A stretch of DNA of 64,000 nt. Source: Wolfiporia cocos (lineage: Eukaryota; Basidiomycota; Agaricomycetes; Polyporales; Phaeolaceae). Made by a program: the position numbers and the translations under genes. The stretch is from positions 5,208,001 to 5,272,000 of the forward strand of contig JACCLO010000001.1 of the NCBI GenBank assembly GCA_029448655.1. The letters are read 5' to 3'. Under the pieces are notes generated by a model, which saw only the letters and a program-made list of their open reading frames with translations, ran no database searches and had not been told where the DNA came from. Positions 11,701 through 56,930 of this stretch are shown piece after piece; the stretch's first letter is position 1, and the number at the start of each line of letters is the position of its first letter.

Positions 11701-13169
11701 ATGGAAGACTGTTCGAAAAAGCACTTTTCGGGCTTCGCATACAAGTCCGAGTCCTTCAGGGTTTGTAGAACCCCTTTGGTAAGTCGCCGATGTTCCTCCA
11801 TATCATTCCCGAAAATCAAGATGTCATCTAGGTAGACAACCACCTTGCCGGTTCGAATGAACGGTGCGAGGATAGAATTCATCATCGCTTGGAACGTTGC
11901 GGGGGCATTGCAGAAACCGAAATACATTACCGTTGCCTCGTATAGTCCACGGTGTGTAATAAACGCCGTCTTCCATTCATCACCTTCCTTGATGCGGACA
12001 TTGTTATATCCCCATCTAAGGTCGATTTTGGTGAAGATGGTCGCATGGGACAATTGATCGATGAGATCATCGATCCGAGGTAGCGGATAACGATTTTTTA
12101 CGGTTATTTCGTTTAGCCTCCTGTAATCGACAACCATCCGCAGTCCTCCGTCCTTTTTATGAACGAAGAAGACTGGGGATGCCATCGGACTTTCGGATGG
12201 TCGAATGTAACCCTTCCGTAGTTCGGTGTCTATCCACTCATCCAAGCTATTCCGCTCTTGGGGAGACATTTTGTATGGTTTTACCGGGGGAGGAAGCTGC
12301 GCATCTGGTTCAAGCACTATGGCGTGATCCCAGGGCTTCCGTTCCGGCATCCTCTCTGACGCCTTTTGTGAGAACACCGTTGGCCCATACTCTTGGTATT
12401 GTTCGGGCACTAACGATCTCCATTTTTCAATGTCGATCGGTGGTGTGTTTTCCTCACGGTCGTCTACTTCGTCAAGGTCTTTGTCAAGTACCTCGGCTAC
12501 CAACTGTGTCAGCAGGTTCATTTCCTCGTCGTCAAGGGTTGCCGCCCAAGCGATCAAAGGATTTTCGGGGTCCTCCTCTCCTAATATGTCCATGGGAGTG
12601 TCCCAAATCGAATTTACTTCGATGATTTCCTTTTCTGGGAGTTCAACTGCTTCCTCATCAGAAGGGCGGTTGCCCTTTTTTCTGGCGTAGGGTTGGTCGT
12701 GTGTACAGCGTGCATATTCCATTTCTCCTTTCCTCCAATCAAAGGTAGGATTGTGGAGACGCAACCAGTCATAGCCAAGGATTAGGTCTGGTTCTAGGTG
12801 CATGACCGTCAGACCTATTTTTTCCTTGTGTGTGCCATGTTGCATAAATGCTTTTACTGATTGCGTTAAGCGGCCGGCGACGTTTTCTGTTCCGTCTGCG
12901 TTTGTAACCGTAATAGGAAACGCTAGTTTGTCGGTGACCAGCTTATGTTTATCGACCAATCGTTGTGATATGACCGATATGGTTGCACCGCTGTCGATTA
13001 AAGCCAGAGCCTGCACTTTTTGCCCATATACCCAGAGTGTTACTTCGACACGAAAAGATCGAGCGAAGTCGCGCGCATCGTTGCCAAAAATATGATACAT
13101 TGACTCGAATACACTCTTTACAGCGGGTACGGGACTAAAATTACACGGGAGCACAAGTGGGCAGGTCAT
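8742..13169 (-). CDS. pol: Pol polyprotein: protease, RT, RNase H, integrase, chromodomain, dUTPase
   Basis: About 1475 residues from the ATG at 13169. Approximate order: aspartic protease with ALIDSGAT at 56-63; reverse transcriptase at 300-500 with YLDD at 447-450; RNase H with VETDAS near 593-598; integrase with HX4H-X29-CXXC zinc site (827, 832, 862, 865) and a D-D-35-E core (D895, D955, E991); chromodomain (EWEVEAILDHR ... DTWE) about 1186-1238; then an 80-residue Trp/Asp-rich linker. The last 158 residues are a dUTPase with all five motifs in order: AIGYDLY, PRSGLA, GVIDHDYRG, GDRIAQ and GFGSTGR at the very C-terminus. Chromodomains are known to steer chromovirus integration to chromatin marks. 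dUTPase would lower dUTP during cDNA synthesis. The start codon overlaps the Gag stop (TGATG). The frame is intact. Confidence 0.97.
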   Translation of the reverse strand: MTCPLVLPCNFSPVPAVKSVFESMYHIFGNDARDFARSFRVEVTLWVYGQKVQALALIDSGATISVISQRLVDKHKLVTDKLAFPITVTNADGTENVAGRLTQSVKAFMQHGTHKEKIGLTVMHLEPDLILGYDWLRLHNPTFDWRKGEMEYARCTHDQPYARKKGNRPSDEEAVELPEKEIIEVNSIWDTPMDILGEEDPENPLIAWAATLDDEEMNLLTQLVAEVLDKDLDEVDDREENTPPIDIEKWRSLVPEQYQEYGPTVFSQKASERMPERKPWDHAIVLEPDAQLPPPVKPYKMSPQERNSLDEWIDTELRKGYIRPSESPMASPVFFVHKKDGGLRMVVDYRRLNEITVKNRYPLPRIDDLIDQLSHATIFTKIDLRWGYNNVRIKEGDEWKTAFITHRGLYEATVMYFGFCNAPATFQAMMNSILAPFIRTGKVVVYLDDILIFGNDMEEHRRLTKGVLQTLKDSDLYAKPEKCFFEQSSIEYLGMIISDGNIMMDPKKYAGVQDWPRPNKVKEVQAFLGFANFYRRFIEGFSKIAKPLTMLTKKSEAWHWDAEQENAFQTLKEAFTKAPVLRIPSHDQPFRVETDASDFATGAVLSQLDPTDKKFHPVAYYSKSLSAPERNYEIYDKEMLAVIRALEEWRHYLEGHPEKFEIWSDHLNLTYFKTAQKLTRRQARWALYLSRFNFQMKHKPGKTMLTADPLSRRPDHEEGVDLDNRDQVLLKPEWFEQEYMAMALDTSHAAPQSEDESILREIRKALLDDKVTKDYKELLSSGPREFKKDLSEWNYEGGLLLRRGKVYVPATPADIRRQVVEYHHDHKSAGHFGRYKTYELLSRNYWWPGMFVYVKIYVDRCDTCQRMKNHPQKPYNPLQPLPVPSGPWEVVTIDLITQLPPSGMHDAIMVVVDRLTKRARFFPIENTFSTKDLATILYQKVYPLHGLPKQIVSDRGTQFASKLFGEWCTLLGIQRSMTTAYHPQADGQTERVNQILEQYLRCYINTYQKDNWSEFLPTAEFAYNNAASETTKESPFLVELGRHPIAGPSSFEPSRNKDLVEIANTRFSAQEKAKAAMKIAAERWSWYYDQKKQIVPFKVGDKVLVDVRSWQDTERSLAPRYIGPFRITEKLGPVTFKVYMDAQYRAYHPVFHASKLVMYKESTIEGQKSHPPAADRPMEMEDPEEWEVEAILDHRNRRGRWEYLIHWKGTGPAEDTWEIEEHLANAKEILDEYKAKYSALSTDPNQPLRRSTRLGGTRQTIAVFDPDSPDWDSDTCVWPDDWPQYRDDVDPTQPKVYYKRDPFTGQWVHSDVEFNEDLEIEVGVNGKLPTRGTTDAIGYDLYAAQDILINSWKSASVPTDIRIKVPYGTYGRIAPRSGLAKKGIDVLAGVIDHDYRGEVFVMLMNLTGDPYQVKKGDRIAQLICEVAITPEIQESMTKEKFEKDIRPHLHGSGPYNEQFNKPTKRGTQGFGSTGR

Positions 13170-15406
13170 CACATGTGCTCGGTGGGAAAACCCGAGGCAG
13201 AGCTTCCGTAGATGCCCAGGGTGTTTGCGGAGTCGGCTATCCGCTTGCGAAGCCAGGGCAGATGTGTCCTGATGGAGTCGCCCGACGGTGTAGGCGCAGT
13301 CGAAGTCGAACCAGTCGACTGGGTCTGGACGGGGCTGGTGCTTTCTGCCGATTGCACCGAACTCCCGCTTTGCTCCTCATCGCTGATGCGCGTAGTGGGG
13401 GCCAGAGGAACCACCTCTGGTTGCTTCGGAACGTTGGTCCGGATGGTCCCTACGGTGGCTTGGGGGGACTCATCTTCGTCGTCAGTCACCAGTTCCTGGG
13501 TGCTGACAATTCGGACCTTGTATTTCTTTTTCGGGTCCAATTTCTTCTGGCCCGACTGTTGCGTTCCGCTCGACGAGCCTGTCGGCTTCGTCGTTCCGCT
13601 TCCACTACTGGCCGGCTTGGCTTCCTTCGGCTTGTTCTTAGGGTTCTCCGGACAGTCGCCCCATTTGTGTTGTCCGGGGTGCTTGCGACAGTCCTTCCCG
13701 TAAGAGCCGGTTTCCTTTGCCTTGCCTTTGCCTTTGTCATCAGCCTTGGCAGGCTTTGACGTAGCTTTGTCGGCGGTCTTGCCAGACCCCGACGACTCCT
13801 TCTTCTTTTCTTCCTCAAAGATCTTGCCTTTGAGTTTATCCGGGTATTGCCTCTTGTAGAGGTCAATGGCCATATCGAGGTATACCTCCCAGTCGGTCGG
13901 CATGGTAAAGCCGGGGACCGATTCTAAGGTAGCGAGGGTCTCTCGTACCTTTTCCGGGAGAATCCGTTTGATGTGACTGAACAACGTCTTGTTGTCAGTC
14001 TCGGCCAGGCGAGCCAGGGTCCTGAGCTTCTGTGCCCAAGAAAAGAAGTCCGATTGGAGCTTCTTTTTCCCTTCGTCTCCGAAGTACCCTTCAATCTCCT
14101 TTTCGGCAATCTCCTTGTCCGTCTTCTTGCCGTACACCTTCTCGATCGTTTCCGCAAACGTTTTCCAGGTGTGCCCCGAGGTTTGTCCGGCGGCGATTTT
14201 ATCAACTACCGGCGACATGTATTGGTAGGCCTCGCCCGTAAGCCGTAGCAGGGCTTGGCGAACCTTGTCTTCCTCGAGGGTCACCTTGGCGTCTGCGAAA
14301 TACATGCCCATTTTTTGGATCCACTCTTTCGATGAGATGGAATCCTTGGGGCCCGAGAATTTGGGCGGTTGAGTCGGTTTGGTCTGTTGGAAGTTGACCG
14401 TGGTGGCTGCTGCTGTCGCGGCTGCCGGTGCGTTTTTTAGAGCGGTTAACTCCGCTTCGAGTTGGTCAATTCTATTAATTAGTGCCGTGACCTGGGCACC
14501 GCTGGGTCCCGCGGTTGGGACTGCCGGACGCTTTTGCAGTACTGCGATGTCTTTTTCTATGCGGACGAACCGATTTTCGGAAAGGGTATCCAATTGTTGC
14601 CGCAAACTCTCCGCTTCCTCTAGTGCTTCTATTCTATTTTGAAGCACCTGGTTATGACTCCGAATCTGGTTGGTCTTGTTCCAGACCATCTCCATATTCG
14701 TGTCTACCCGGCTTTTGTATGCCGCGAGGTTGCTGTAGAGGTGGTTCTTGGCTTGGTACAGCGCCTCCCTGTAAGCTTCTTTTCCCACCTGCAGAACTTC
14801 GTCTGGGGCGGCCACTTCCAGAGTGCGCTGCAACCTTCCCATCAATTCGTTCTCGCTTCTTTCCGGCTGCGCGACTATTTCCAGGGTTCCTCTTTCATAG
14901 GAGGGGAGGAGATCGGGGAGCGTCCCAAATAGGGGCTCCGTGTCGACTGGTTCCTCCGGCCGTGGAGTCTCGCTGCCTTCGGGGGTGATGACTGCTCGGC
15001 GTGCGGGTGTTTCCGGGTTGAAGAGCCTGGCGGCTCTCGTGCGTGGCGACGCTTCTTCCTGAGAGTACCAGTGGACGTCACCGTACAGGACTATGAGGTC
15101 CGACAGGGGGATGGCGGTGCAATAGTTGTCCCACCTCCACCACGAGATGTGGTTCCTGGTCGAATCTTCCCCATAGTACTTGATGTACGCCGTGTGATTC
15201 ACGTTCAGGAAAGGGCGCACATGCGCCGGAATTGAGTTGAAGGAGGTTACACTCCCCCTAACTCTGATGCCGAATACGACTCGCAGATAGTCCATCAAGC
15301 ATGTCTGCTCTCCGGGCCATGCATGCTTGCCGACGGCGGGGCGGTAGGCCGTAGCCACCTTGTGGGTGTTGTACAGAGCGCCTTGTACGATCGTGTAAGA
15401 CACCAT
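13169..15406 (-). CDS. gag: Gag-like structural protein
   Basis: The first ATG is at 15406 (MVSYTIVQG), giving 745 residues; the same frame is open for 18 codons further upstream but without an ATG. An N-terminal part of about 210 residues is rich in aromatic residues and then Pro/Glu. A predicted coiled coil follows (VLQNRIEALEEAESLRQ ...; INRIDQLEAELTALKN). The retrotransposon Gag region follows (PPKFSGPKDSISSKEWIQKM to about residue 540). A Lys-rich hinge leads to a variant zinc knuckle, CRKHPGQHKWGDC (C-X2-H-X3-H-X4-C instead of CCHC), near residues 573-585. The C-terminus is Ser/Thr-rich. It should form the particle and bind genomic RNA. It ends in ATGTGATGA, where the stop overlaps the Pol start. 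Confidence 0.88.
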   Translation of the reverse strand: MVSYTIVQGALYNTHKVATAYRPAVGKHAWPGEQTCLMDYLRVVFGIRVRGSVTSFNSIPAHVRPFLNVNHTAYIKYYGEDSTRNHISWWRWDNYCTAIPLSDLIVLYGDVHWYSQEEASPRTRAARLFNPETPARRAVITPEGSETPRPEEPVDTEPLFGTLPDLLPSYERGTLEIVAQPERSENELMGRLQRTLEVAAPDEVLQVGKEAYREALYQAKNHLYSNLAAYKSRVDTNMEMVWNKTNQIRSHNQVLQNRIEALEEAESLRQQLDTLSENRFVRIEKDIAVLQKRPAVPTAGPSGAQVTALINRIDQLEAELTALKNAPAAATAAATTVNFQQTKPTQPPKFSGPKDSISSKEWIQKMGMYFADAKVTLEEDKVRQALLRLTGEAYQYMSPVVDKIAAGQTSGHTWKTFAETIEKVYGKKTDKEIAEKEIEGYFGDEGKKKLQSDFFSWAQKLRTLARLAETDNKTLFSHIKRILPEKVRETLATLESVPGFTMPTDWEVYLDMAIDLYKRQYPDKLKGKIFEEEKKKESSGSGKTADKATSKPAKADDKGKGKAKETGSYGKDCRKHPGQHKWGDCPENPKNKPKEAKPASSGSGTTKPTGSSSGTQQSGQKKLDPKKKYKVRIVSTQELVTDDEDESPQATVGTIRTNVPKQPEVVPLAPTTRISDEEQSGSSVQSAESTSPVQTQSTGSTSTAPTPSGDSIRTHLPWLRKRIADSANTLGIYGSSASGFPTEHM

Positions 15407-17061: not shown

Positions 17062-17073
17062 AGTTCTATTCAT
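17062..17073 (-). promoter_or_regulatory. Self-complementary primer-binding site
   Basis: In element sense ATGAATAGAACT begins one base after the 5' LTR end (LTR starts at 17075). It is the exact reverse complement of AGTTCTATTCAT in the LTR at 17185-17196, which lies 34 nt downstream of the TATA box start. There is no TGG, so tRNA priming is unlikely. This matches the self-priming arrangement known for Tf1. Confidence 0.8.
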
Positions 17074-17074
17074 A

Positions 17075-17693
17075 TAACACAAGATAACACTTACTTGTAA
17101 TGTTCTTGGTATTGCTGGTTAGGCAAGAGATAAAGCAGGTGTTAAGCAGGATACGTTGAGTGGTTAACTCGTAGTATGAATGCAATGAATAGAACTGAGG
17201 CAATAGCGCTCAGCAAGTCCAGTATATATACATGATAAATAAGACCCCTAACAGTCTTATTAGATAATACTAGTGTCCGTATTCGTATGTACAAGTCCCC
17301 AGGTACCTAAGTACTTAGTAATATACGATAAATAGATATGCCGATCAAAACCGGTATATAGAAAGGCGGCGTAGGCCGCACGAATGGCGTTTTGCGCTCT
17401 TGTCATTACAAAGACGGGGCGTGACCAAAGCCCGGTCCGCTGACGTTTGTACGCTGACTGCTTCCGGACGGAACGTCCGATTGGCTAGAACTAGACATGT
17501 GACTGATGGTAACTACTAACGATAAGATAAGACCGTCGTTACGGGAGATAACGCGGCCATCATTCGGCACGTATGTAACCGTTAACTTATGGACCAGATA
17601 AGCTAGTTATTGGTCTAGAAAGTCGTAGATAATTCGTAGAGTTGCCGGAAAAATAGTAAGAAATATAGGGAAACTAGGAGAATTCTTGTGACA
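17075..17693 (-). repeat. 5' LTR of gypsy element copy 1
   Basis: 619 bp with the promoter. In element sense: TGTCACAAGAATTC..., TATA box (17230-17223), a short dyad, the inferred transcript start near 17196, and a U5 of about 120 nt that contains GTAAGT 20 nt before the end TTATCTTGTGTTA. Confidence 0.93.
17185..17230 (-). promoter_or_regulatory. LTR core promoter: TATA box, dyad and inferred start
   Basis: TATATATA (17230 down to 17223) is followed by a 5-bp dyad CTGAG/CTCAG and then AGTTCTATTCAT starting at 17196, 34 nt from the first T of the TATA box. The start is inferred from the TATA distance and from the fact that the complementary primer segment begins exactly there. Confidence 0.65.
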
Positions 17694-21383: not shown

Positions 21384-21712
21384 TGTCACAGAATATCCAG
21401 GGGGATATCTAACAACCCTCGCTATAGGTTATACGGGCGGCGCTAGGCGTACGCCGCCCCTCTGAGCCTCAGCCACCTCCACGTCAGTCTCTCTAGTTTG
21501 TAGGTCACCTGACTGTTATGGTTAGCGCTGTAGGATAGCGCGCGCCTCAGGTACTCACGTTACGGTCACATTAGGTATCACATGCCTCGCTTATGTAATT
21601 ACTTACCTCAGCTGTTAGGGCGGTGCTGCGCACAGGCCAGTACTTAAGGGTAGACACATAGCGTACAGTTCATGCATGTATATAAGATACGACGAGATGG
21701 GGCTTATTCCCC

Positions 21713-21971
21713 ATCTCTAAGATTCTCGACAACTGAGCCTCTGGCTCCTCTCTTATAATGTGTGTGGTGCGACTCGCCTTAGGGTGCCCTCTACTGCTAG
21801 ACTGGTAGCGATACGACTATGCAAGTATCCTGTACGACGATTTCCTAATTCCGAGGGAATGCCTCTGTCTACGTCGATACTCGCCGTCATCTAGTCGCAA
21901 GGCCTTGGGTTTATCCCCTGCCTATAGCAGGTCGCACAGCCCGTGTAAGTCTGTGTCATAATCTTAGAGAT
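21713..21971 (+). promoter_or_regulatory. Family-B self-primer pair
   Basis: ATCTCTAAGATT in the LTR (21713-21724) lies 34 nt after the start of TATATAAG (21679). AATCTTAGAGAT (21960-21971), starting one base after the LTR end, is its exact reverse complement. The dyad GATGGGG/CCCCATC ends at the start of the primer segment. Confidence 0.8.
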
Positions 21972-22741
21972 ATCTTACCTCCCCCCGTGCGTCCCCGCGC
22001 ATGGGCCGAGGGTTCTCTACCTATAGGTCGCCATGGCAATGCGGCGGGGCAGCCTCTGGTAGAAGCGCCAGAGGTCCGTAGTCTTACGAGCCCCCACGAA
22101 GCATTACACCAGGCAAAGCGACCATAGGGAATGAGAAGTAAGTCCGCCCCCCATCGAACACTGGGTAGCCGGATCGAATGTCCATAAGCCGCGCTCGAGG
22201 GCCCGCCGCCACTCGCCTGACAAGGCAGTGTGCGCGTGGAGGTCTAGTGCAGGACATCCATTATCCTGGGCGGCAGGGGCCAACTCGAAAATCTTTGACT
22301 AGTGGGTATGCGAAGGAACCCGCAAGGGTCTCCAACCCCACACCGACAGTCACGAAGGTTAGACGACAACAACGACAACCGACTACCATACTCGACAGCG
22401 CAAACCACATACCCCGAGGTCGGCGCGTCACGCTCAGCCACGTCGGCGTCAGTCCTAGGAGGCGGAATGCTTGGAACATTACCACAACCTCCGATGGGCC
22501 CGCTCACCTCTGACGAGTCTCATACGCTCACGTCGCGGGATGTAAGGGAAACAGGGAATGCCCGATCCAGTCACCCCAATGCTCTCCTGCAGGCGCGCGT
22601 TCTTCTCTCCTCCATCGGCGGACGGACCGTGCACATGGACGCTCCTCATGAACCACATGAGCCGTGTGTCAAACAAGCAACCAAGGATGCGAGGGTCGTA
22701 GGATATAAGGTAGAACGTTAGGGACAACGTTTTTTAGGAGG

Positions 22742-23331
22742 TGTCACGGTTATACCCTGGGGGGGTACCTGACTCCACTCACGTTAGCTGTATGGGCGGC
22801 GCTAGGCGTACGCCGCTCCGCTACACTAACGCTTTGTCTCACGTTAGTTCTCGAGCATATAGATCACCTGACTGCATCGGTTAGCGCTGTAGGGTAGCGC
22901 GCGCCTCCTCATACGGTCACTCATGGTCACATAGTTACATGTAGCGTTACTTGTCATGTGCCCTGTAGATAATGCGCACAGACCATTACTTTAGGGCTGG
23001 GCTCGTAGTTACTACGCGCACACATGTATATATACGACAAGATGGCGGCCTTACAGTCCCATCTTTAGGATTCTCGTCAATGAGCGTAAAGCTCCTTTCT
23101 TACACTCTGTTTGTGTTGCTGTTGGCCCGGGGCCTCATCTTGTCTGCCTAGTCTGAAGGTCGGCGACTGCGACGGCTGCGGGGCCTTAGGTGGCTGAGCA
23201 CCCTCGGGATGGACTTATGAGTTCACCTAGGGTTGGCCGTATGAGTTCGTCGTGGCCGCTGGCTCACGTCTACACAGGCTTGTGAGGGTTCCCCTGAGTC
23301 CAGGGTCGCACAGACAGGTAAGTCTGTGACA
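22742..23331 (+). mobile_element. Solo LTR nested in the family-B element (590 bp)
   Basis: It runs TGTCACGGTTATACC...GTAAGTCTGTGACA with the 5-bp duplication GGAGG (22737-22741, 23332-23336). It is related to families A and B but distinct. The insertion lies in the polypurine tract of the host element, duplicating part of it. Confidence 0.9.
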
Positions 23332-24657
23332 GGAGGGGGGGTAATGTCACAGAATATCCAGGGGGATATCTAACAACCCTCGCTATAGGTAATACGGGCG
23401 GCGCTAGGCGTACGCCGCCCCTCTGAGCCTCAGCCACCTCCACGTCAGTCTCTCTAGTTTGTAGGTCACCTGACTGTTATGGTTAGCGCTGTAGGATAGC
23501 GCGCGCCTCAGGTACTCACGTTACGGTCACATTAGGTATCACATGCCTCGCTTATGTAATTACTTACCTCAGCTGTTAGGGCGGTGCTGCGCACAGGCCA
23601 GTACTTAAGGGTAGACACATAGCGTACAGTTCATGCATGTATATAAGATACGACGAGATGGGGCTTATTCCCCATCTCTAAGATTCTCGACAACTGAGCC
23701 TCTGGCTCCTCTCTTATAATGTGTGTGGTGCGACTCGCCTTAGGGCGCCCTCTACTGCTAGACTGGTAGCGATACGACTATGCAAGTATCCTGTACGACG
23801 ATTTCCTAATTCCGAGGGAATGCCTCTGTCTACGTCGATACTCGCCGTCATCTAGTCGCAAGGCCTTGGGTTTATCCCCTGCCTATAGCAGGTCGCACAG
23901 CCCGTGTAAGTCTGTGTCAGTTTGGTCATCAATGGCATATGAATTGTGCAAAGTTTCCAAGAAAATGGTGGTGCTGTTTCTGAGAAACGACTGTGTGAAG
24001 TAACAAATAAAGGTGAGTATGTATAAGGCTAACTAGCTCAGATATGGATTGGACTCCCAAGAGGATTAATGTGCAGAATGGCTACAAGAATATGTCTGTG
24101 CAAGGGCTAAGCCATAGGATCAATGGTTGAGTTATTTGAAGGGCATGATTGCTTTCATGAAGATTGGCCAGCATGCATGAATTACTGCAGATAGAGACTA
24201 GCTTTCCAAAGAACAAAGTCAATGATTCACTATCGGGGGTACATACCAATGTGTCTTTGCACAACTTTTTCAAGGCAGCATTGACAATCTTCTCAATCTC
24301 CAAACGTATTGCCGCAGCACTTGTGGATGCTTGACCCATCTCAACATCCACTGCATCCTTGACTTTGGCCTTTGCAGCATTCTTATCAGCAATACACCCA
24401 AGGTGTTGTTTGGTCAGCATGACCACCTGAGAGTACAGAATGTGTACAACATTTTTGAGATGTGTGTGTTGTGCAGTGAAGGCTTCTGAGTCCTCCATGC
24501 CTGTTACACATGTCTCTGTCCTGCCTTGGTCATTTATAACTACATCGCCCCACGTGGGGACAAGGTGGGCCTTCCACACCACCTTGCAATGATGGTTAAT
24601 CTCCTGACACAATGTCACGAGATAAAGAGCAGGGTCTAGTCACACATACAGCCAGTC

Positions 24658-25215
24658 TGACACAGACTCACAGGGTCTGTGGAACTGGCACAGCCAGGAA
24701 TCCCCTATGGCCAAGCATCCAGCTAGGCTAGCGCACCAGTGCTGAGCCTTCAGGTGAGTGTGGATCTTATAAGCCGAGGTAGAATCCCAGACAAGTCAGA
24801 CAAGAGGTAACAAGGTCCAGTGCCGATCAGTGCACATAGAGGAACTGAGAGAAAGGGGCATTCGCCCAATTGTCGAGAATTCCAAAGATGAGGTTGTATG
24901 ACCTCATCTCGTCATAATATATACATGTGCTGTCTGTACTACTGGTCTGCCCTAAACTAGAGGTCTGTGCACCATGCCGCAGACATAACTAAGGGAACTA
25001 CCTAGTAACGCTACATGTAACTAATGTGACCGTCATGTGAGTACGTACAAGCACATGCTACCCCGAGAGCACTATCTACTGAGTCAGGTGACCTTGTCGG
25101 TATCTAGGGTTGACGCAGAGGCAGCTAGAGGAATGGCGTGGATGTAGCTTGATTTGTCCACAGGCAAGAACCTAGCGAGGAATGTCGTTAGAGCCCCACC
25201 AGGTGTTCTGTGACA
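24658..25215 (-). mobile_element. Solo LTR, family G (558 bp)
   Basis: It runs TGACACAGACTCAC...GTTCTGTGACA with the 5-bp duplication CAGTC (24653-24657, 25216-25220). On the minus strand a TATATATT site is followed by a dyad with GATGAGGT/ACCTCATC arms. Confidence 0.88.
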
Positions 25216-25517
25216 CAGTCCAACTCCTTGGTCTTGGCAGTGATCCAGTCATGGAGGACCGCATGTTGATATACACTATGCTTTTAAGTGAGGGTGGCTG
25301 AAGCAGCCATGTGACCAGTTTGGCCATCTGCCACAAACTCAGCTGTGAACTGAAGTGGCAGTGCTATCATCCCTGCAATCTGAGAAGGAAGAGCCCCCTT
25401 GGCCTCGTGCCAGAGCAAATGCTCGACAGTCTTGGACACATGCACCGATTTCTCAATGCCAGTTATAAGGTGGTGGAGCAAGACGAACACCAGATCCTGG
25501 CAGGGAAGCGGCACATG

Positions 25518-26076
25518 TGACACCGACGTATGGTGTCTGTAGGACCTGTGCAGCAGGGGGTGCTTCCAGTGCCTAATAAGCCAGCAAGTTGACTAACCAG
25601 CAGTGAACACAGAGGCTACATGGGCTGATGGTCTCAGCATCTCTCTAGTGTACGTCGACGTAGCGAGTAGGCCCACAGACAAGTAAGACCCGTGGGCCCC
25701 CTGGGGCAGAGCACACACAGAGAGGTGGAGCAAAAGGGGCCAAGCCCAATGTCGAGAATCCTAAAGATGGGGAGTAAGCCTCATCTACTACTAGCTTATA
25801 TAGATGTGGATAGAGCAGAGCGGGTCTACCCTAAAGTGCAGGCCTGTGCACTGTAACTATGAGTGACCGTGATGCAACGCTACATGTAACTAAGAGGTGA
25901 CCATCATATGAGTACCTGGTACGTGCACTATCCTATAGCACTAATCTACTGAGTCAGGTGGTCTATCTAGGGAGTGACGAAGGAGGTAGCATGGTGAAAA
26001 GGGAGCACTGCGTGCACAGCAGTGCCCATACAACCTAGTGAGGGTGTTAGATGTCCCAATGGACCGTTCTGTGACA
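25518..26076 (-). mobile_element. Solo LTR, family G (559 bp)
   Basis: It runs TGACACCGACG...GTTCTGTGACA with the 5-bp duplication ACATG (25513-25517, 26077-26081). It is a relative of 24658-25215. It interrupts gene Y in frame. Confidence 0.88.
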
Positions 26077-26258
26077 ACATGCCTGATTACTTCCTTGAAG
26101 GTAGTGGCGTACGCAATTGTGCCATACCTTGAGTCAGTAAACCCATTGTTTCGTATGGCATCCACAACAGCAGAGCTGATAAGGGAGGATGAGCCTTGTC
26201 GGGCACTGCGAGGGACATGGTGAGTGAATGTGGCAGCAGCAGAGTTGGTATATGCCAT

Positions 26259-26682
26259 CTAGTATGGAATAAGTGTAAATACGACCCATAAAACAAATAC
26301 TGAACAGGACAGAAGGTGTACGATGTGTAGAGATGAGGGGCCCCATGAAGGTTAGGGATGTCATGAGATCAATGCATGAGAGAAGTAAGGAGAGTCAGTG
26401 TTGCTAAAGACTAAACAAGGAGTCATCATTCACCCACCACCATGTGATAGGGGTTTCTCAAGTCCCCATGATTAGTCTTCATCAAGTGCATGATGGGGCA
26501 GGACTTGTATCCCATAGGGTACAGGGGGTCCAGTTCAACCTGTCAGATATCACAAGATCCATCTCTAAGTTAGTTTGGTCCACGATGGAACCTATTGGAC
26601 AAGACAGGAGACCACCAGGCATGAGCCGAAGCCAGACGTGGGTGTTAGACTGCTCTAGCAAGCAGCCAATACTGGGTGTTAG
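26259..26682. other. Host-type sequence upstream of gene Y, no gene called
   Basis: Possibly the promoter or earlier exons of gene Y; frames are short on both strands. Confidence 0.35.
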
Positions 26683-27777
26683 TGACACAGATGGCTCTGT
26701 GGGACTCACCACGCCAGTATCCTTGCGATGAACTAAGGCGACGAGGTGAGGTAGAGGTTATCAGACGCGGTAGTAGGTGGAAGGTTCTTCTACGGCGTAC
26801 GCCGAGAAGAATAGAACTAGAGTTATAGACCGTCAAGGCCCTACTTATATACACATATATAACGGGTCATGTGCTACTGTATAGTACATGCCCGATAAGG
26901 AATGTGGGCTTGGTTGCCAGAAGGGCGACCAAGTGGTATGACTACTCTACAAAGGCCGTGGCCCGCCGGTAATGGCCGGGCCAATGGTAAAATAGAGAGT
27001 GTGTGGTCTCATCGTTAGATGGACATGTGAAGACGGGCGCAGCCCAGGTATAAGGGATGCCGGTTGCCGGATACCGTGAGGTATAATGGCGATTGGCCGG
27101 TCATCGTGTGCTGACCAAGGCGGAACGCCGAGGTCGTAATGCTATTGGGCCAACAGGCACTGTAGCATGTGATATGTCCGGACCGGAGGGTTACCGGAAC
27201 ATATGGCGGTCTTAGCCGTGAGGCGAGGACCGGTGTTTGGGCAACGCCGTGATGGCAGAAGCCCGGGACTTGGAGAACGCCGAGTCCGTGGGATGGCCGA
27301 GAAGGCCGAGCCTATAGCGATATTGCCTTGATGCTAATATAGTGCTATTTGGCCGTGTTGCCATTATTATGCGAAGGCGTGGCGCGCCTGAGGTGTCATT
27401 GTGATCAAGGATCTTATGGCAGTGGGAAGCCGGGAAGGCCGACCCAATAGTACAAGGCCGCGAGGCACTGTTTGTACATGTGGACATTATTATGCGAGCG
27501 TGCCGCGCTCGGCCTATCATTATGATCTACGATCTATGACGTGGCTGGTCTTGCTCTGACGGGCAAGACCTATGACGTATGCTGTAGTGTTGCTATTGGA
27601 CATGGTTGTACCGTAGCATTACGTAAGCTGGTCATGTGGTTGATAAGCCCAGTTAAGAGCTTGTCGTGGTGGCAATGGGAGTTAACCCGTAGATAACTGG
27701 TAGTTAGACGTATAAATCCCAGGTAAATTGCTATAATCGTAGGAAAAATGCTGTAAGCCCCAGATAAATCTGTGACA
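26683..27777 (-). mobile_element. Solo LTR, family F (1095 bp)
   Basis: It runs TGACACAGATGGC...AAATCTGTGACA with the 5-bp duplication GTTAG (26678-26682, 27778-27782). It is the same family and length as the LTRs of the element at 52034-58090, in reverse orientation. Confidence 0.92.
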
Positions 27778-27782
27778 GTTAG

Positions 27783-28138
27783 CATGACCTGATGGCCACC
27801 AATACTGCCCAAGACAATTCCCTTTGGTAATAATGGGTTGGTATATCATGCCTTTGAGGCAGGGCATTAAGCCCGGGCCATGGAGGTGGAATGTAAAAGC
27901 ATAGAGAGCAGAGGACCATGAGGTGATTACTCATGCAATTGGTTTTAACAGGTAAAACCCTAGTTGAGGGTTATGGAGGTTATGGGAGGATGACCCTAGT
28001 TGAGGGTTAATGGAAATAAAACCCTTGGATTAGGGTTATGAATTTGAAATTCCTTATTAGTGGTTTCTGGTCACCCTGTATATGGCTTCATTTGGTGATT
28101 TTGAAGTACATTTCGAAAATCTGTCCCCATGTTAGGGG
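27783..28138. other. No gene recognised; short inverted motifs
   Basis: The stretch 27955-28040 contains repeated ACCCTAGTTGAGGGTTA motifs, which are short palindromes. Nothing else is supported. Confidence 0.45.
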
Positions 28139-28339
28139 TTATGAGACACTGTAGGGTGTCTAACCCTGCAGTCTTGCCACTAGGGTGCCACCCCTAGCTA
28201 GGGCATGACCCCTACAGTACTACTGCCTTGTTCACTACTGTATCTATTTATCCTGAGTAGTAGCACAATTTTGCGCCCAACTATCTTGCAATTGGACGTG
28301 CCGTGCATTCAACCAGCGGTGTCTACATGGCAGCTCACA

Positions 28340-28462
28340 CACTGCGTCCGACCATGTCGGATGCGGATGTCCACTGCTGGGTGGGGTCACGTGCGCCTAT
28401 GGGTGGATAGACGCTCACCCAGCGGTGGACATCCGCGTCCGACATGGCCGGACGGACAAGGG
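28340..28462. repeat. Hairpin module HP in gene Z copy 2
   Basis: The left arm CCGACCATGTCGGATGCGGA is matched in inverted orientation by TCCGCGTCCGACATGGCCGG. The loop contains GTCACGTG. A conserved flank, GACAAGGGTGTCAAAGTCGA, follows. Confidence 0.8.
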
Positions 28463-28804
28463 TGTCAAAGTCGACATCACGAAATATTAAGTCATTCTGC
28501 TTCAGCCAGCCAGATATCATGCTTGGATCCTCTCACTGTGAAACTGAAGGAAATGCAGGACCAGTGCGAGCGGGAGGAGGAGGAGCGGAGGCTGCATGGA
28601 TGGAGATGGGATGAGGACTCGATGGACATTGATGATGATGAGAGCGCTGTTGCCGAGGACTTTACTGATGAGAGCAGGGACGTCGAGGTGGATTTGGATT
28701 TGGTGAAGGCGTTGAAGGTACGTTTTGGATCTCAGATCGTGATGGCATCTGGGCTAGCCTGACAGACTCTACAGGCATGGTGTCACTATCTCCAGAACCT
28801 CCTC

Positions 28805-29448
28805 TGTTACGATCCTTCAGATACACTTGTATATTTTCTTTGACGCCTCACCGTGTAGAGGGACTCAGCATTCGACCGCTTCGTCGGGCGCCTTATTCTA
28901 TTCTATGGATCCCTGCACAACTGGAGACCCTCGGTTTCATGGACAACAGCGTGGCGCTATAGCTAGCTGTAGCCACTCCCCCAAAAGGGCTACAATAACA
29001 GCTTGGCCGTTATCAAGGGTCCAGCTATATGTGCAGTTCATCCTATGCCCATAACTGCTAGTTCCCCGCCGCGTCGGCGTTCTAGCTGATGTCCTGGGTC
29101 TAACTGCAGACCTTCTACATTTCGGCCTTCGTTGCGCTGAACTGCAACGCTTCTCCTTGTTCACCTACAACGTTGGCTCGACGGACTTAATAGTAGCAGT
29201 ACCGAGGACACTACGACCCCAATTACTGAATCGCAGTATGTGACCTGATGTAAACGCTGGTCGAGTTCCTCGGCTTGACCTTGTTGCGATTACCAGTACA
29301 AGGATCTTATACTCATTCTCAAAGGCTTGAGCCCTCAACTTGTATATCGACGCTCTGACTGTGAGGGGTCTGACAACTGGTGCGCTACTCGATACGCTGA
29401 GTAACTCGACTTGGTTACTTCAGCTGAACAGATATTCAATCCGTAACA
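28805..29448. mobile_element. Solo LTR (644 bp) in gene Z copy 2
   Basis: It runs TGTTACGATCC...CCGTAACA with the 5-bp duplication TCCTC (28800-28804, 29449-29453). Its absence from the other Z copy (38.4-39 kb) marks the ends exactly. Orientation is not clear. Confidence 0.85.
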
Positions 29449-29783
29449 TCCTCCAGTCGACCGCACGAAGCGAGTTTTCATGCAGGCGGCAGCCTTGGGG
29501 TCCATCAGCGTACAAGCAATCAAGATCATGACCTGCCTCGTCATTGTCGATACAAACATTCTTCCATCATCTCTCTCTATGTTCGCAACACTTATGTGGT
29601 GGGATTTACCTTGCTTTGTGCGGTTTGGTGCTACGCTGGTCTTTCGCAGCATAATGGGTGGCCTTAATCGACAGCAAAATGCCTGTTTGACTGCGATTTG
29701 CCATTTGCAGCGAGGTCAGATACATGCATGCCGTAGAGCACAGTAATGCATTGAAAAGCAGTGAGCGAGTTGAGATGGGCACG

Positions 29784-30092
29784 GCGTCCGACCATGTCGG
29801 ACGCGGATGTCCATCGGTGGGTGGGCGTCTCGCGCATCACGTGATCTCACTCAGTGGTGGACATCCGCGTCGGACATGGTCGGACGGACAAGGGTGTCGA
29901 GATCGACGTCGCGAACTTTTATGCCGCTCTGCTCCAATCGGCCAGATATTGAGCCGGGGCCTGGTAAGCGAGGCTCGAAAGGCGCGGCACCCAACTATGT
30001 CGGACGCAGATGTCCGCCATTGGATAAGGTCACATGCTGACCTAGGCGCCCACCCAACGGTGGACATCCGCGTCCGACATGGTCGGACGGAC
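29784..30092. repeat. Two hairpin modules HP
   Basis: Copies at about 29784-29898 and 29985-30092. Each has inverted arms CCGACCATGTCGGACGCGGA / TCCGCGTCCGACATGGTCGG (with minor changes) around a 30-40 nt loop. The first is followed by the conserved flank GACAAGGGTGTCGAGATCGA. Confidence 0.82.
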
Positions 30093-31972
30093 AAAGGTGC
30101 CAAAGTCAACGTTGCGAGAAATTCCCATTGACTCGCACACCGTTGCAGATTGACGGGCCAGCAATGCAACAGATAAACAATAATATTTTGGCGACAAGGT
30201 TTTGAAGATAAGATATTAACAATGAGGTTTTAACGATAAGATTTCGACGATATAGCAGATCGATATAACGGGGAATCGACGATCACAAGCGGCAACGCTT
30301 CTTGTGTGGATCTATCAGATGCCTTCTAGAAGTAGAATGTGATAGAGGCGGGGATCATTAGCAGCAGAAGAGAAGCGTGAAGGAGGTGAGGGCATGAGGT
30401 CCAGGGCATGGGGTGATAGGACGGTTCTCGGCGCCTGACAGGAGGGGCAAGACATAAAATGAGGAGGGGGGGAGCAGGGATGCCCCTCAGACCAACCCCC
30501 ACGATGAGCAAAGACAACGGAGGTAACGAAGGTGGCAGAGCTAACGAAACCACCCCCCGCCGAAGGCAGAAGGGGGCTTTTTTGGACCTCTACGTCTCTT
30601 GCAAGGCTCTCGACTACAAGTTCTGGAAATGGGACGAGTTCCAAAACCCAACTCAGACGCTCGGCTGGTTTTATGAAGACAGGGAGACGGCTCCTGAGAT
30701 GTGGAGCGACAACACGGTGAAACAGGTAATGGCATTCATTGACGCTTATGAGATGAAGAACCCGAAGGACCGGGCGCGGTTCATGCACAAGGCGAAGGCG
30801 CCGGGAGACGGCTATACCAACGGACGCGAGGGGTGGCACGAATTCGTCGAGATCACCAAGAAGCAAATCAAGGTGGACAACATGGTGGATCGCGTGCTGG
30901 ACGACCACGGGATTACGCTGGACAGCTTGGTGGAGCAGAGAGGGATGGGCGCGGTAAGCGATTCGGTCATCCACTGGAAGCGGTGCGGAGCGGCTGACAT
31001 GCGGGGCTTGCGACAGCTGCCCAGCCAATTGGACGTCGTCACCACGGTGCACACGATCACGTTCTCCGAAGATATATTCGGCCCTCAATGCATGGGCACG
31101 ACGACGAACGGGCGGCGATGGCTCCGAGAGCCGTTCGCGGCCTTCGCGCATTGGGCGTTCGCGGCGACATGGGAACGGTATAGAAGCAAGCTCCGGCGCA
31201 ACATGAGGCGGTTTGAGGAGCTGAAGGAAAAGTGCAAGACGAGCATGGAAGGTGAGCATGGACATGTAGATGGGGTCGGGTGTTTTGCTGCTGACGACAA
31301 GGACGACGACGGGCAGAGATCGAGAGCGGCAAGACGACGCCGATGCCGGCGGCATTGAAGAAAGTACTCAAGGACATCACAGACCTGATCTCAATCATGA
31401 TGCGGTACAAGGCGGCGGAAGTGGCGACGGTGCGAGATCAGTACCAGACGCGCGTTCAGGAGATGCTGGACTGCCTGGACCCGGTCAAGGCGAAGGCGAG
31501 CAGTAAGTGCACTTTTGACACGACGACGACGACGATGCTGAGGAGATGGAATGCAGCCCTACCACGGCCTCTCCGTATGGCGCTGCGAGCGCTTGCGACG
31601 AAGGACACGGTGATGCAGGTGCAGGGCACCTTGCAGCGGCTGATCTCGGACATGAGCCCCGACTCGGAAGACGACAACGAACAGGTCGAGCTCGACTTCG
31701 ACGCGGCACCCGACATTGAGTGGAGGACCGGCACGGAAGAGTACGAGCACCTGACGTTGGAGCAGGTGGTGGCGGAGCTGGGGCTCCCTGACGGGCGCAT
31801 CCCATTCCTCAACGAGAAGGAAGACCCAGACGGCCGCGACCCCTGGTCAAAGGAAGGGAAGGCGGCGCTGGAAGCGGAGACGGCGCGTCCGTTCAACCCC
31901 CGCTGGCATCAGTATGTCGGCGTGCTCAAGATGATGCACAGCGCGCTGAACGGGAAGCCGACGCTGCTGATG

Positions 31973-33910
31973 TGTCACGGATGTGCCCAGGGGGCCACTG
32001 TACTTCCCTCGCTATAGGTTCCACATGCGGCGCTAGGCGTACGCCGCGTCTCTGGTCCTCAGCCACCTCCTGTGCGTCTCTTTAGTTTGTTGGTCACCTG
32101 ACTGTTTGGTTAGCGCTGTAGGGTAGCGCGCGCCTCAGGTATCACACGTTATGGTCACACTAGTTACATGCGTCACTGTAGTTACATATCATGTGCTCTC
32201 TTAGATAATGCGCGCACAGGCCATTACTTTAGGGCGGCCATTACTGGCCAGCTACACATGTATAAGTACGACGGATGAGGACTTACATCCTCATCCTTGA
32301 GATTCTCGTCAATGCACTTAGTGCCTCTCTTATCATCTGTCTGAGCGTGCTCTGGCCCGAGGGCCCCTCTTGTCTTGCTCGACTGTGTGATGCCTCTCTA
32401 TGTCGCCTCTAGGAGTCCTTAGGGATGGTCACCTTTGGTACAGCCGACAAGGTCACCGCTGGCGCGGCGTTGCACACGTCTTGTAGGGCGTTAGGGAGTC
32501 CCCCTGATGCCAGGGTCGCACAGACTGGTAAGTCTGTGACATAATCTCAAGGATATCTTACCTCCCCTCCGGCGCGAACTGCGTTGGGGCCGAGGGTTCT
32601 CCACGTACAGGGTGCCATGGCAACGCGGCGGGGCAGCCTCTGGTAGAAGCGCCAGAGGTCCGTAGTTTTACGAGCCCCCACGAAGCGTTACACCAGGCGA
32701 AGTACCCGTGCGGAGTGAGCAAGCAAGTCCGCCCCCTTTCGAACGCAAGGTAGAAGGGGTCAACCGACGTAAGCCCCGTTTGAGGACCCGCCGCCGTCAC
32801 CCCTGACAAGGGAATGTACGCGCGTGTGGAGGTCTAGGGCAGTCCGGCCAATTACCTCTGGGCGGCAGGCACAAGTACAAGATCTCATGACCAGTGGGTA
32901 TGCGAAGGAACCCGCAAGGGTCTCCAACCCCACACCGACGGTCTCGAAGGATAGACAACAACATCGACAACCGACTACTATACTCGACTGAGCCAACCAC
33001 ATACCCCGGGGTCGGCGCGTCACGCTTCGCCATGTCGGCGTCAGTCCTAGGACAAGCATGCGCTAACATGACTTACCGATGGGCCCGCTCACCGCTGACA
33101 AGCCTCATTCGCTCACGTCGCGGGATGTAAGGGAAGCAGGGATGGTCACGGTTTGCTCCCAATGCTCTCCTGCAGGCGACGCTCACTTCACTCCTCCACT
33201 GGCGGACGGTCCGTGCACATGGACGCTCCCCACCTTACTTTGCAAAGGATGGGCCGTGTGTTAAACAAGCAACCAAGGATGCGAGGGTCGTAGGATATAA
33301 GGTAGAACGTTAGGGACAACGTTTTTTAGGAGGGGGGGTAATGTCACGGATGTGCCCAGGGGGCCACTGTACTTCCCTCGCTATAGGTTCCACATGCGGC
33401 GCTAGGCGTACGCCGCGTCTCTGGTCCTCAGCCACCTCCTGTGCGTCTCTTTAGTTTGTTGGTCACCTGACTGTTTGGTTAGCGCTGTAGGGTAGCGCGC
33501 GCCTCAGGTATCACACGTTATGGTCACACTAGTTACATGCGTCACTGTAGTTACATATCATGTGCTCTCTTAGATAATGCGCGCACAGGCCATTACTTTA
33601 GGGCGGCCATTACTGGCCAGCTACACATGTATAAGTACGACGGATGAGGACTTACATCCTCATCCTTGAGATTCTCGTCAATGCACTTAGTGCCTCTCTT
33701 ATCATCTGTCTGAGCGTGCTCTGGCCCGAGGGCCCCTCTTGTCTTGCTCGACTGTGTGATGCCTCTCTATGTCGCCTCTAGGAGTCCTTAGGGATGGTCA
33801 CCTTTGGTACAGCCGACAAGGTCACCGCTGGCGCGGCGTTGCACACGTCTTGTAGGGCGTTAGGGAGTCCCCCTGATGCCAGGGTCGCACAGACTGGTAA
33901 GTCTGTGACA
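31973..33910 (+). mobile_element. Non-autonomous LTR element, family A, inside the helicase gene
   Basis: 1938 bp with two 569-bp LTRs (31973-32541, 33342-33910) that look identical, TGTCACGGATGTG...GTAAGTCTGTGACA, and a 5-bp duplication TGATG (31968-31972, 33911-33915). The 800-bp interior has no gag or pol frame. Its polypurine tract is AGGAGGGGGGGTAA. It matches the interior of the family-B element in several blocks. The insertion falls in the codons just before the Walker A motif of the helicase. Confidence 0.95.
32261..32554 (+). promoter_or_regulatory. Family-A TATA, dyad and self-primer pair
   Basis: TATAAG at 32261; dyad arms GATGAGGA/TCCTCATC ending at 32296; ATCCTTGAGATT at 32293-32304; its exact reverse complement AATCTCAAGGAT at 32543-32554, one base after the LTR end. 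Confidence 0.8.
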
Positions 33911-35227
33911 TGATGGACGAGGTCGGGGTCGGCAAGACGCTGCAGGCGATCATGTTCGCCGCGCTGAGGGTCTACTATTGCGAATACTACAAACAGTACA
34001 ACAAGTTCCCCGGGGCGTTCGGTAAGTGCGGGGGGGGGGGGGGGGCGGGGCGTGATTTGGGGCGCGCTGACGGTATGCGCATCATGCAGGCAATCAGGAA
34101 TACACGGAAAATCTCGACAACGCATCCACCATCATCATCTGCCCGCCCAACCTCGTGAATCAGTGGACGGGAGAGATCAAACGATACCTGAAGCACGGTG
34201 AGTTCGACCTCATCCCATACATGGGTCCGCAGGGGTCGCGCGAGACGTTCTGGGCGGAACTGCAAGCCCAATGCAAACACGAGCCTTGCCGCCGCATCTT
34301 CCTCACGACACACACGGTACGTGGGCCCTTTTTATTTACACGTCCATGCTCATCAAAGCTGATCGTCGCGCCGCCGGACGCATCTCACGACAACAGGCCA
34401 TCAAGGCCGACCTGGAGGTCTGTTTCGACGCGTCGAACCCCTACGTGCCGAAAATCATGTCGAGGGTGTTCGCAAGGCACCTCGCCAACACCATACACGG
34501 CCACGTCTTCGGCACCATCATCGTCGACGAGGCGCACGTCGCCCGAAACCCGAAGATGACGTTCGCGGCGATCAACAACCTGCGGCGGATGAGTGGCAGG
34601 ACGGTCATCGCGATGACGGCGACGCCGCTTCTGACGCGTCCTGGGGTGAGCTTGCGTTTCTTTCCTTTCACAGGGGGGCCGAGGGATGACGGCGAAGCGC
34701 ATCTTAGGATCTGTGGAACCTCGGCCACCTGATGGGCGTGGAAGGGTTCGGTGAGGAGAAGCTGGAGGACCTCAAGGCGATGGAGCGGGACCTCTCGTCG
34801 GCGCTGCGTCGGGACCGGCGGAGACTGAAGCAGTCGGAGCAGTCTAACGAAGTGCTGGACCGCATCGCTCACGGACGGAGCGTACATGCAAAATCGGCGT
34901 ACCTCAGCGTGGTGGCCGAGAAGATGGAGACGCTCCGCGACCGGTTCGCAGGCTCGATCGTTCGGCGGACGGTGAACTCTCTGGACTTCAAGGGAGATCT
35001 GATCTCTGGGCTGCCGATGTACCACGAGCACATCATTCAGCGGCCGCTGCTGGAGTGGGAGCAGCCGTTCTTCGACATGGTCGCGCACGATCTCATGGTC
35101 GACGACCACCTCGGGACGGCGAATCAGATCTTTACGGGCAAGGTGAGTGCTTGCTTCATCGACTGTTGGAGTCAGAGATGGGGAGGGAGGCAGAGAAATT
35201 TATCGCAGTTCGATCTTGAACAGCGCG

Positions 35228-35710
35228 GCCGTCCGACCATGTCGGACGCGGACGTCCATCGCTGGGTTGGGTCACATGACGCCTTGGGCGCCCACCCAGC
35301 AGTGGACATCCGCGTCCGACATGGTCGGGCGGCAGCGCTGTCCAAGATCGAGCTTGCCATTTGATGGAGGCAGGCGAATTTTATTATCGCTGCTCGATCT
35401 TGGACAGCGTGGCCGTCCGACCATGTCGGACGCGGCCGTCCACCGCTGGGTGGGGTCACGTGACGTCTTAGACGCCCCACCCAGTGGTGGACATGTGCGT
35501 CCGACATGGTCGGACGGCCGCGCTGTCCAAGATCGAGCAGCGATAAATTCGCCTGCCTCTCTCAAATGGCGCGCTCAATCTTGGACAGCGCTGCCGCCCG
35601 ACCATGTCGGACGCACATGTCCACCGCTGGGTGGGGTGTCTAAGATGTCACATGACCCCACCCAGCGGTGGATGGCCGCGTCCGACATGGTCGGACGGCT
35701 GCACTGTCCA
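35228..35710. repeat. Tandem array of three hairpin modules HP in a helicase intron
   Basis: Copies at about 35228-35340, 35411-35525 and 35590-35710, each with near-perfect 35-45 nt inverted arms (CCGACCATGTCGGACGCG ... CGCGTCCGACATGGTCGG) around a loop with GTCACATGAC or GTCACGTGAC. The spacers also repeat in inverted form (CCAAGATCGAG / CTCGATCTTGG). All lie within the probable 657-nt intron 35143-35799. Confidence 0.88.
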
Positions 35711-52959: not shown

Positions 52960-53142
52960 TATATAAGTAGGGCCTTGACGGCCTATAACTTTAGTTCTAT
53001 TCTTCTCGGCGTACGCCGTAGAAGAACCTTCCACCTACTACCGCGTCTGATAACCTCTACCTCACCTCGTCGCCTTAGTTTATCGCAAGGATACTGGCGT
53101 GGTGAGTCCCACAGAGCCATCTGTGTCATAAGAATAGAACTA
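52960..53142 (+). promoter_or_regulatory. Family-F TATA and self-primer pair
   Basis: TATATAAG at 52960; AGTTCTATTCTT at 52993-53004 (33 nt from the TATA start); its reverse complement AAGAATAGAACT at 53130-53141, one base after the LTR end at 53128. The match extends to 13 nt with the preceding T / following A. Confidence 0.8.
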
Positions 53143-56640: not shown

Positions 56641-56709
56641 AGGAGAGCCCCTCCTTCTAGGATCCGCGTGCACAATGACAATACACTCTAGTAATACGAC
56701 TACAATTCC

Positions 56710-56930
56710 CAAACAACGGCATTTGACCTTTCGGTCATCACGCGTTGATAATCGCTAGTAACGGCATTTAGCACTTCGCTATCACGCGTTACAAATCAAT
56801 AAGGAATAAATCGCCTTCCACGCTCAGGCTCCATCCACAAGTCCTGAAACTCCCATTTATCCCTGTTCAATTGACAAAATTGAAGCAGCACCATAACGGC
56901 ATTTGACACATCGTCATCACGCGTTATACC
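56710..56930. repeat. Three copies of an ACGGCATTT ... ATCACGCGTT motif
   Basis: Copies near 56715-56746, 56760-56791 and 56894-56925, just upstream of the polypurine tract of the family-F element. Function unknown. Confidence 0.65.

Follow-up and report, generated by a model that had tools for sequence, protein, structure and literature searches.

How can a retrotransposon that encodes no protein prime its own reverse transcription, and what keeps its primer complementary to a separate binding site while both change between families? The question is raised by a 64,000-nucleotide stretch of the Wolfiporia cocos genome (contig JACCLO010000001.1, positions 5,208,001 to 5,272,000; hereafter the window, with positions counted from its first letter), in which two elements, families A and B, carry within each long terminal repeat (LTR) a 12-nucleotide (nt) segment complementary to a site just past the 5′ LTR. 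We put at roughly 0.86 the probability that both elements belong, as non-autonomous LTR retrotransposons, to a self-priming Ty3/gypsy superfamily, carry a matched primer and primer-binding site (PBS), and obtain their proteins in trans. Self-priming and primer/PBS covariation in these elements are strongly supported.

Matched primers and binding sites in the window and the genome

A sequence-only reading of the window had proposed that the LTR segments of A and B pair with the sites following the LTRs, that all differences between the segments are matched in the sites, that the segment lies 32–34 nt from TATA and the site one base past the LTR end, and that neither element is coding. Each proposal was borne out. 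Segment and PBS are complementary over 12/12 nt in both families, the two primers differ at positions 4, 5 and 7 with each difference matched in the PBS, the segment lies 34 nt (B) or 32 nt (A) downstream of the start of TATA, and, since the LTRs end at 21958 (B) and 32541 (A), the PBS begins after one T in each. The elements are 2.5 kb (B) and 1.94 kb (A) long; their interiors hold no listed open reading frame (ORF) above 139 amino acids (aa), and Pfam scoring of five of the ten listed interior ORFs gave no match at E ≤ 1, on which grounds a coding function for A or B was rejected. Chance complementarity of primer and PBS was rejected on the covariation and energy permutations given below and on match counts in the window, where the B and A segments have 3 and 6 matches with at most one mismatch (expected, 0.16 and 0.36).

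The same reading had called for a genome-wide comparison of primers with sites, and had named as its refutation non-complementary copies with intact LTRs and target-site duplications (TSDs). We searched the host assembly (64.4 Mb, 76 contigs), in which the junction of polypurine tract (PPT) and LTR, GGGGTAATGTCAC, occurs in 1188 copies (reversed control, 0). This junction is common to non-autonomous and autonomous elements, both classes being present within the window, as are TGTCAC ends and 5-bp TSDs. A pattern with the LTR end and post-PBS sequence fixed and the 12 PBS bases free gave 134 matches (control, 0), of which 100 were examined together with at least four of the other 34 (L005, L012, L016 and L030). 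The set of 5′ ends resembling terminal-repeat retrotransposons in miniature (TRIM-like) comprised 111 rows, or 82 distinct spans, and a primer was found in 77. It was located by TATA and a short motif, blind to the PBS, with primer base 1 required to be A, base 2 to be T or G, and the post-primer bases fixed, so that these positions were not free. Primer and PBS proved exact complements (12/12) in 75 of these 77 readable distinct spans, which comprise eight primer types; the two inexact spans are L064/L065 (one distinct span) and L070. The primer lies 32 nt from TATA in 19 of the 77 copies, 33 nt in 42, 34 nt in 9 and 35 nt in 7. As for the five spans with no located primer, L011 is a partial view of L001, L009, L010 and L115 were found matched by direct reading, and L063, apparently broken by an insert, was left out of scoring. 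L036, which falls outside the pattern through a post-PBS change, has an exact pair as well (ATCTCTTAGATT / AATCTAAGAGAT).

A separate route through LTR pairs yielded 34 distinct pairs. Of these, 28 are flanked by an exact 5-bp TSD, and in all 28 (27 non-autonomous, one autonomous) a perfect complement of the PBS stands 26–38 nt after TATA; in this route, as in the scoring of families auto2, T, U, auto1 and V, the primer was looked for via the PBS. Outside the 28, L007 is matched without a TSD, L058 represents a different, small type of element, and the script set the LTR ends of L009, L010, L036 and window family V in the wrong place. L158 and L159 each combine a 5-bp TSD with an exact pair, and no non-complementary copy with intact LTRs and TSD occurs among the 28 TSD-exact elements and these two. 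Overall, at least 15 primer types are spread over three classes of element in this genome, autonomous chromodomain–dUTPase families included. Within the 64-kb window alone, separate matched pairs belong to one autonomous family, to two TRIM-like families that are complete and to one large family of non-autonomous elements.

Pairing and covariation exceeded what shuffling of partners produced. Over 30 distinct rows, 98.6% of cells were paired compared to 87.2% after shuffling, the covariation score was 0.371 compared to 0.145, and seven pairs had changed on both sides (0/500 shuffles in each case); shifting the partner by 1–3 columns abolished the pairing. When each of 12 primer types was represented once, duplex energy averaged −14.1 kcal/mol for matched and −4.5 kcal/mol for permuted partners, none of 100,000 permutations being as low. 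Unconstrained folds of the leaders paired the primer with the PBS in 12/12 types, with a probability of 0.96–0.975 computed for nine; the types without a usable probability (C, auto2 and T) also pair primer with PBS in their predicted structures. A FastTree phylogeny of the U5 (unique 5′) sequence between primer and PBS requires at least 12 changes of primer type, each of which is PBS-matched by construction, since the tree was built from the 75 matching rows only.

Copying, selection and a putative second duplex

Excerpts of the literature on Tf1 describe pairing of RNA nt 1–11 with the PBS and an RNase H cut after nt 11 (PMC7175516), and those on self-priming chromoviruses describe an RNA 5′ end that primes at a PBS immediately beyond the 5′ LTR (PMC7175516, PMC4600332). 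In the elements considered here, the A of the LTR segment would be the first transcribed base, the 5′-most 11–13 nt of the RNA would fold back to the PBS that follows the LTR, a short duplex between nt 16–19 of the R (repeat) region and the LTR end would adjoin the primer:PBS helix, and RNase H would, by analogy with Tf1, release the folded 5′ nucleotides, which would then prime minus-strand DNA. Tf1-type self-priming accounts for positions, lengths and covariation alike. The sequence-only reading had further held that the pairing is kept while the elements move in trans; such movement is plausible given the shared PPT/LTR junction, ends and TSD length, which point to autonomous chromodomain–dUTPase elements as the probable source of the proteins. 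Related earlier work, judged by titles, reportedly includes Levin 1995 and 1996, Lin and Levin 1997 and 1998, Butler 2001 and Persson 2016, and Atwood-Moore 2006 is said, again by its title, to deal with a self primer that is not removed.

The match between primer and PBS would be kept both by the need for pairing and by copying of the primer into the PBS. On this pathway the primer RNA should also be the template for the plus-strand PBS, so that a primer change should enter the PBS without selection; covariation is then partly built in and offers no clean proof of selected pairing. The earlier claim that compensatory change is evidence of selected pairing thus survives as to the covariation (75/77 exact) and is too strong as to selection, because copying should also produce the match. 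We give even odds to the stronger proposal that copying does nearly all of the work, the PBS tracking the primer via reverse transcription in each round while pairing strength is barely selected. Consistent with it, in no TRIM-like span of the 77 is G·U the only departure from Watson–Crick pairing, though RNA priming should tolerate G·U; R and PBS change jointly across a U5 with its own phylogeny (in the matching rows); and in family U L172 differs from L170 in one primer base, which the PBS follows and the non-copyable U3 (unique 3′) arm described below does not. However, a G·U pair at primer nt 2 is common to two independent auto1 insertions, so that this PBS base was not overwritten and copying is incomplete, as the G·U pair of L171 in family U also shows. 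The second duplex covaries as well, as does the U3 arm, without a copying route known to the analysis.

The second duplex is the next helix in folds of the TRIM-like leaders, predicted between R16–19 and the LTR end, where GAC is found with ...GTGTCA and GTC with ...GTGACA. Its variable base is matched in 73/77 spans, and all four pairs are present in 72/77 (G·U allowed), the misses being L070, L129, L133 and L134, and L064 at another base. Extra duplexes that join the PBS flanks to the LTR form the Tf1 "pretzel" (excerpts of PMC10085805), and the putative R16–19/LTR-end helix, seen as covariation in the sequences, resembles one of its two extra duplexes. Selection on pairing has its best support where no copying route is known, in this second duplex and in the U3 arm. 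With so dense a natural series of self-primer/PBS pairs in one genome, the dependence of self-priming on length, wobble and flanking duplexes can be tested by counting, and so can the balance of copying and selection.

Separately, a splice-donor-like GTAAGT lies near the LTR end in many families (e.g. 32528–32533) and can pair with the post-PBS CTTACC; we also noticed that a CTTAC hairpin loop could kiss GTAAG near the LTR end.

The U3 arm predicted to fold over the primer

A U3 segment between TATA and the inferred start is predicted to fold over the pre-start nucleotides and the first primer nucleotides in 12 of 14 types, with hairpin z-scores of −2.2 to −5.9 against dinucleotide shuffles. 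These arms vary between families with complementarity retained: across 12 types (without U and V), arm/primer energy was −13.9 kcal/mol matched and −8.9 kcal/mol permuted (0/100,000). In all of 12 types but T, primer nt 1–5 are predicted to be less open when embedded in the LTR than when they form the 5′ end of the RNA. The primer/PBS match is a known device; the covarying U3 arm looks new, and in the open-licence literature, represented mostly by titles and starts of abstracts, we noticed neither a U3 arm covarying with a self-primer nor a self-primed TRIM.

From this anatomy we tentatively suggest that the arm might act as a lock on primer copies away from the RNA 5′ end. It would close the primer wherever U3 lies upstream (in the 3′ LTR, read-through RNA and plus-strand DNA), leaving only the true 5′ end to prime, and the covarying arm thereby suggests how an RNA with primer sequence at both ends could use only the 5′ one, a question that we had not met before. 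That U3 arm, primer and PBS covary jointly in most families also makes it conceivable, if doubtful, that the U3 boundary serves as a built-in sensor of the genuine RNA end. The main rival to the lock is that the arm is a DNA promoter palindrome at the start site, a possibility we rate, like the lock itself, as rather unlikely: its position between TATA and the inferred start, spanning the start, in 12/14 types would suit a promoter element, as would the fact that at the 5′ LTR the arm is present only as DNA, yet a sequence-specific factor leaves unexplained why arm sequences differ widely while complementarity stays, and the bulged stems suit a folded strand. Very improbable is the proposal that primer/PBS complementarity serves RNA dimerisation or packaging with a tRNA as primer. 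Paired leader segments do serve dimerisation in some retroelements; here a PBS adjoining the LTR, a primer 32–35 nt from TATA in TRIM-like copies and family-specific changes limited to the 11–13 nt all suit priming.

Several observations weigh against self-priming through a consistently matched, covarying primer and its flanking helices. Further pair types are no more numerous than after shuffling (11 compared to 10.5; 240/500; 30 rows), the U5 tree is poorly resolved (26/70 inner branches with poor support), and families and rows are related, so that the permutation counts are not probabilities and the counts are inflated. A third pretzel duplex, GTRAG/CTTAC, is possible but its PBS side is fixed by the search pattern, and the hairpins of T and V stop short of the primer (z −0.8 and −1.6). 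Imperfect pairs (G·U, mismatches, mosaics) also exist, all outside the TSD-exact set of 28; several of these copies were chosen for an unusual PBS and so are not a random sample. In the inexact L070 the 5′ LTR is of family E, the 3′ LTR is of family C and the PBS fits the 3′ LTR primer; L064/L065 has two mismatches, LTR primers that differ from each other and a PBS that fits neither. Among the other families, U shows a C·A mismatch (L168) and a G·U pair (L171), T a G·G mismatch (L173), auto1 the G·U at primer nt 2 in L174–L176 (L174 and L176, whose flank is shared, represent a single duplicated site, and L175 a separate insertion), V two imperfect copies (L177 and L178, with a bulge or mismatches) and auto2 a deleted PBS (L147).

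Neither inexact TRIM-like span was accepted as a counterexample: L070 (element L157) is a chimera whose PBS fits its 3′ LTR primer, and L064/L065 is an old mosaic element found twice in a duplicated stretch; in the chimera L157 and the mosaic L155 the LTRs do not match each other. Trans-priming by another family's primer, which these two cases had suggested, is superfluous for the L070 chimera and was set aside, though it may still apply to L064/L065.

Related elements and further features

TRIMs and large retrotransposon derivatives (LARDs) possess a PBS and a PPT, and classical TRIMs have very short LTRs and a very short total length. The elements described here share with TRIMs the LTRs, PPT, TSD and lack of coding capacity, but have LTRs of about 470–610 nt and a total of 1.6–2.5 kb; as both exceed the classical sizes, we label them TRIM-like. 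In contrast to TRIM/LARD elements, they are probably self-primed. Excerpts of a bivalve TRIM paper define TRIM/LARD by a short non-autonomous interior between two terminal direct repeats and propose no clear priming mechanism (PMC6934838).

The Tf1/sushi group (Tf1, Tf2, Tosmo1–3, Tcry1, Tj1), as portrayed in excerpts of its literature, resembles the present elements in its RNA-5′-end primer, its PBS past the 5′ LTR and its chromodomain Pol. Here the PBS is complementary at the DNA level to the predicted 5′ end of the element's own RNA, the start being placed by its distance from TATA, and auto1 carries the chromodomain characteristic of the group. In contrast to Tf1/sushi, the primer types of this single genome number at least 15, many of them in non-autonomous elements, Pol has a C-terminal dUTPase, and a U3 arm covaries with the primer, a feature that excerpts of PMC7175516, PMC4600332 and PMC10085805 do not mention for the group. 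LTR elements bearing a dUTPase are reported, in excerpts of PMC2864245, from basidiomycetes and one ascomycete, and the basidiomycete Ty3/gypsy elements with dUTPase include Postia PosPlaTy3 and Phanerochaete examples, one with the domain at the Pol C-terminus. These resemble auto1 in their dUTPase; the same excerpts discuss self-priming for a spikemoss element only.

Table 1 Features of the probably self-primed elements in the window
Feature	Positions	Strand	Remarks
Family B TRIM-like element	21384–23919	+	LTRs 21384–21958 and 23345–23919, 575 nt, 99.7% identical; TSD GTTTG
Family B self-primer ATCTCTAAGATT	21713–21724	+	R nt 1–12 (predicted RNA 5′ end); 3′ LTR copy 23674–23685
Family B PBS AATCTTAGAGAT	21960–21971	+	complement of ATCTCTAAGATT
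Family B U3 arm GAGATGGGG	21694–21702	+	predicted pairing to CCCC and R nt 1–5; hairpin −16.5 kcal/mol, z −4.2
Family B R16–19 GACA	21728–21731	+	second-duplex partner: LTR-end TGTC 21954–21957
Family B PPT/3′ LTR junction GGGGTAATGTCAC	23338–23350	+	
Family C solo LTR inside family B interior	22742–23331	+	TSD GGAGG; boundaries and TSD by eye; primer ATCTTTAGGATT 23061–23072
Family A TRIM-like element (L026)	31973–33910	+	identical LTRs 31973–32541 and 33342–33910; TSD TGATG
Family A self-primer ATCCTTGAGATT	32293–32304	+	3′ LTR copy 33662–33673
Family A PBS AATCTCAAGGAT	32543–32554	+	complement of ATCCTTGAGATT
Family A U3 arm GGATGAGGA	32273–32281	+	predicted pairing to TCCTC and R nt 1–4; hairpin −15.9 kcal/mol, z −5.6
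Family A R16–19 GTCA	32308–32311	+	second-duplex partner: LTR-end TGAC 32537–32540
Family A PPT/3′ LTR junction	33335–33347	+	
auto1 self-primer AGTTCTATTCAT	17185–17196	−	PBS ATGAATAGAACT at 17062–17073 (−)
Second auto1 copy, self-primer	50828–50839	−	PBS 50705–50716 (−)
auto1 pol ORF	8742–13376	−	protease, reverse transcriptase, RNase H, integrase, chromodomain, C-terminal dUTPase
Family V self-primer AGTTCTATTCTT	52993–53004	+	PBS AAGAATAGAACT at 53130–53141
Family V element	52034–58090	+	identical 1095-nt LTRs; TSD CGGTA; large, non-autonomous, self-primed

The Pol of the autonomous family auto1 matches Chromo (PF00385, E 3e-13) and SH3_Tf2-1 (PF24626, E 2e-12), with the dUTPase following the chromodomain (Pfam E 1e-33, window copy). 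Relatives of the dUTPase region disagree: Phlebia brevispora at 47%, Ceratocystis platani at 54% and a contamination-flagged sturgeon entry at 61%. Eight further auto1 places comprise four exact pairs, three with G·U and one unscored (L182), at which a T-family LTR end abuts the remainder of the auto1 R region, as though the insertion had occurred inside the self-primer. In the autonomous T family, 11 nt are matched in 8/8 copies with a recognisable 5′ end, L173, picked for its variant PBS, being unmatched; the T-family ORF at locus L031 shows integrase, chromodomain and dUTPase by eye. Matching extends over 13–14 nt in 5/6 auto2 copies with a recognisable 5′ end (exception, L147), the U family is exact in 6/8, including L172 with the same single difference in primer and PBS, and the TRIM-like family G has an exact pair. 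For family V, no ORF of at least 150 aa is listed between 49.2 and 58.9 kb. L179 lies outside these families.

Element A, whose identical LTRs indicate a recent insertion, interrupts a gene (30420–35364) with a 3′ part that appears SNF2-type helicase-like by eye, the site lying just before a GVGKT-like motif. Locus L058, on its minus strand at 841–1764 of that locus, contains an element of 923 nt whose LTRs measure 257 nt and whose PPT is the same; the LTR/interior junction has ATAACAGCTCA, the complement TGAGCTGTTAT lies in the 3′ LTR, and the element is a candidate for self-priming at a smaller size still. Two more minus-strand LTR-like sequences carry the primers ATCTTTGGAATT (24878–24889) and ATCTTTAGGATT (25757–25768) in the same hairpin layout, and repeats of 65–80 nt around TCCGACCATGTCGGACGCGGATGTCCACCGCTGGGTGGG, in both orientations, are scattered over 18557–58954.

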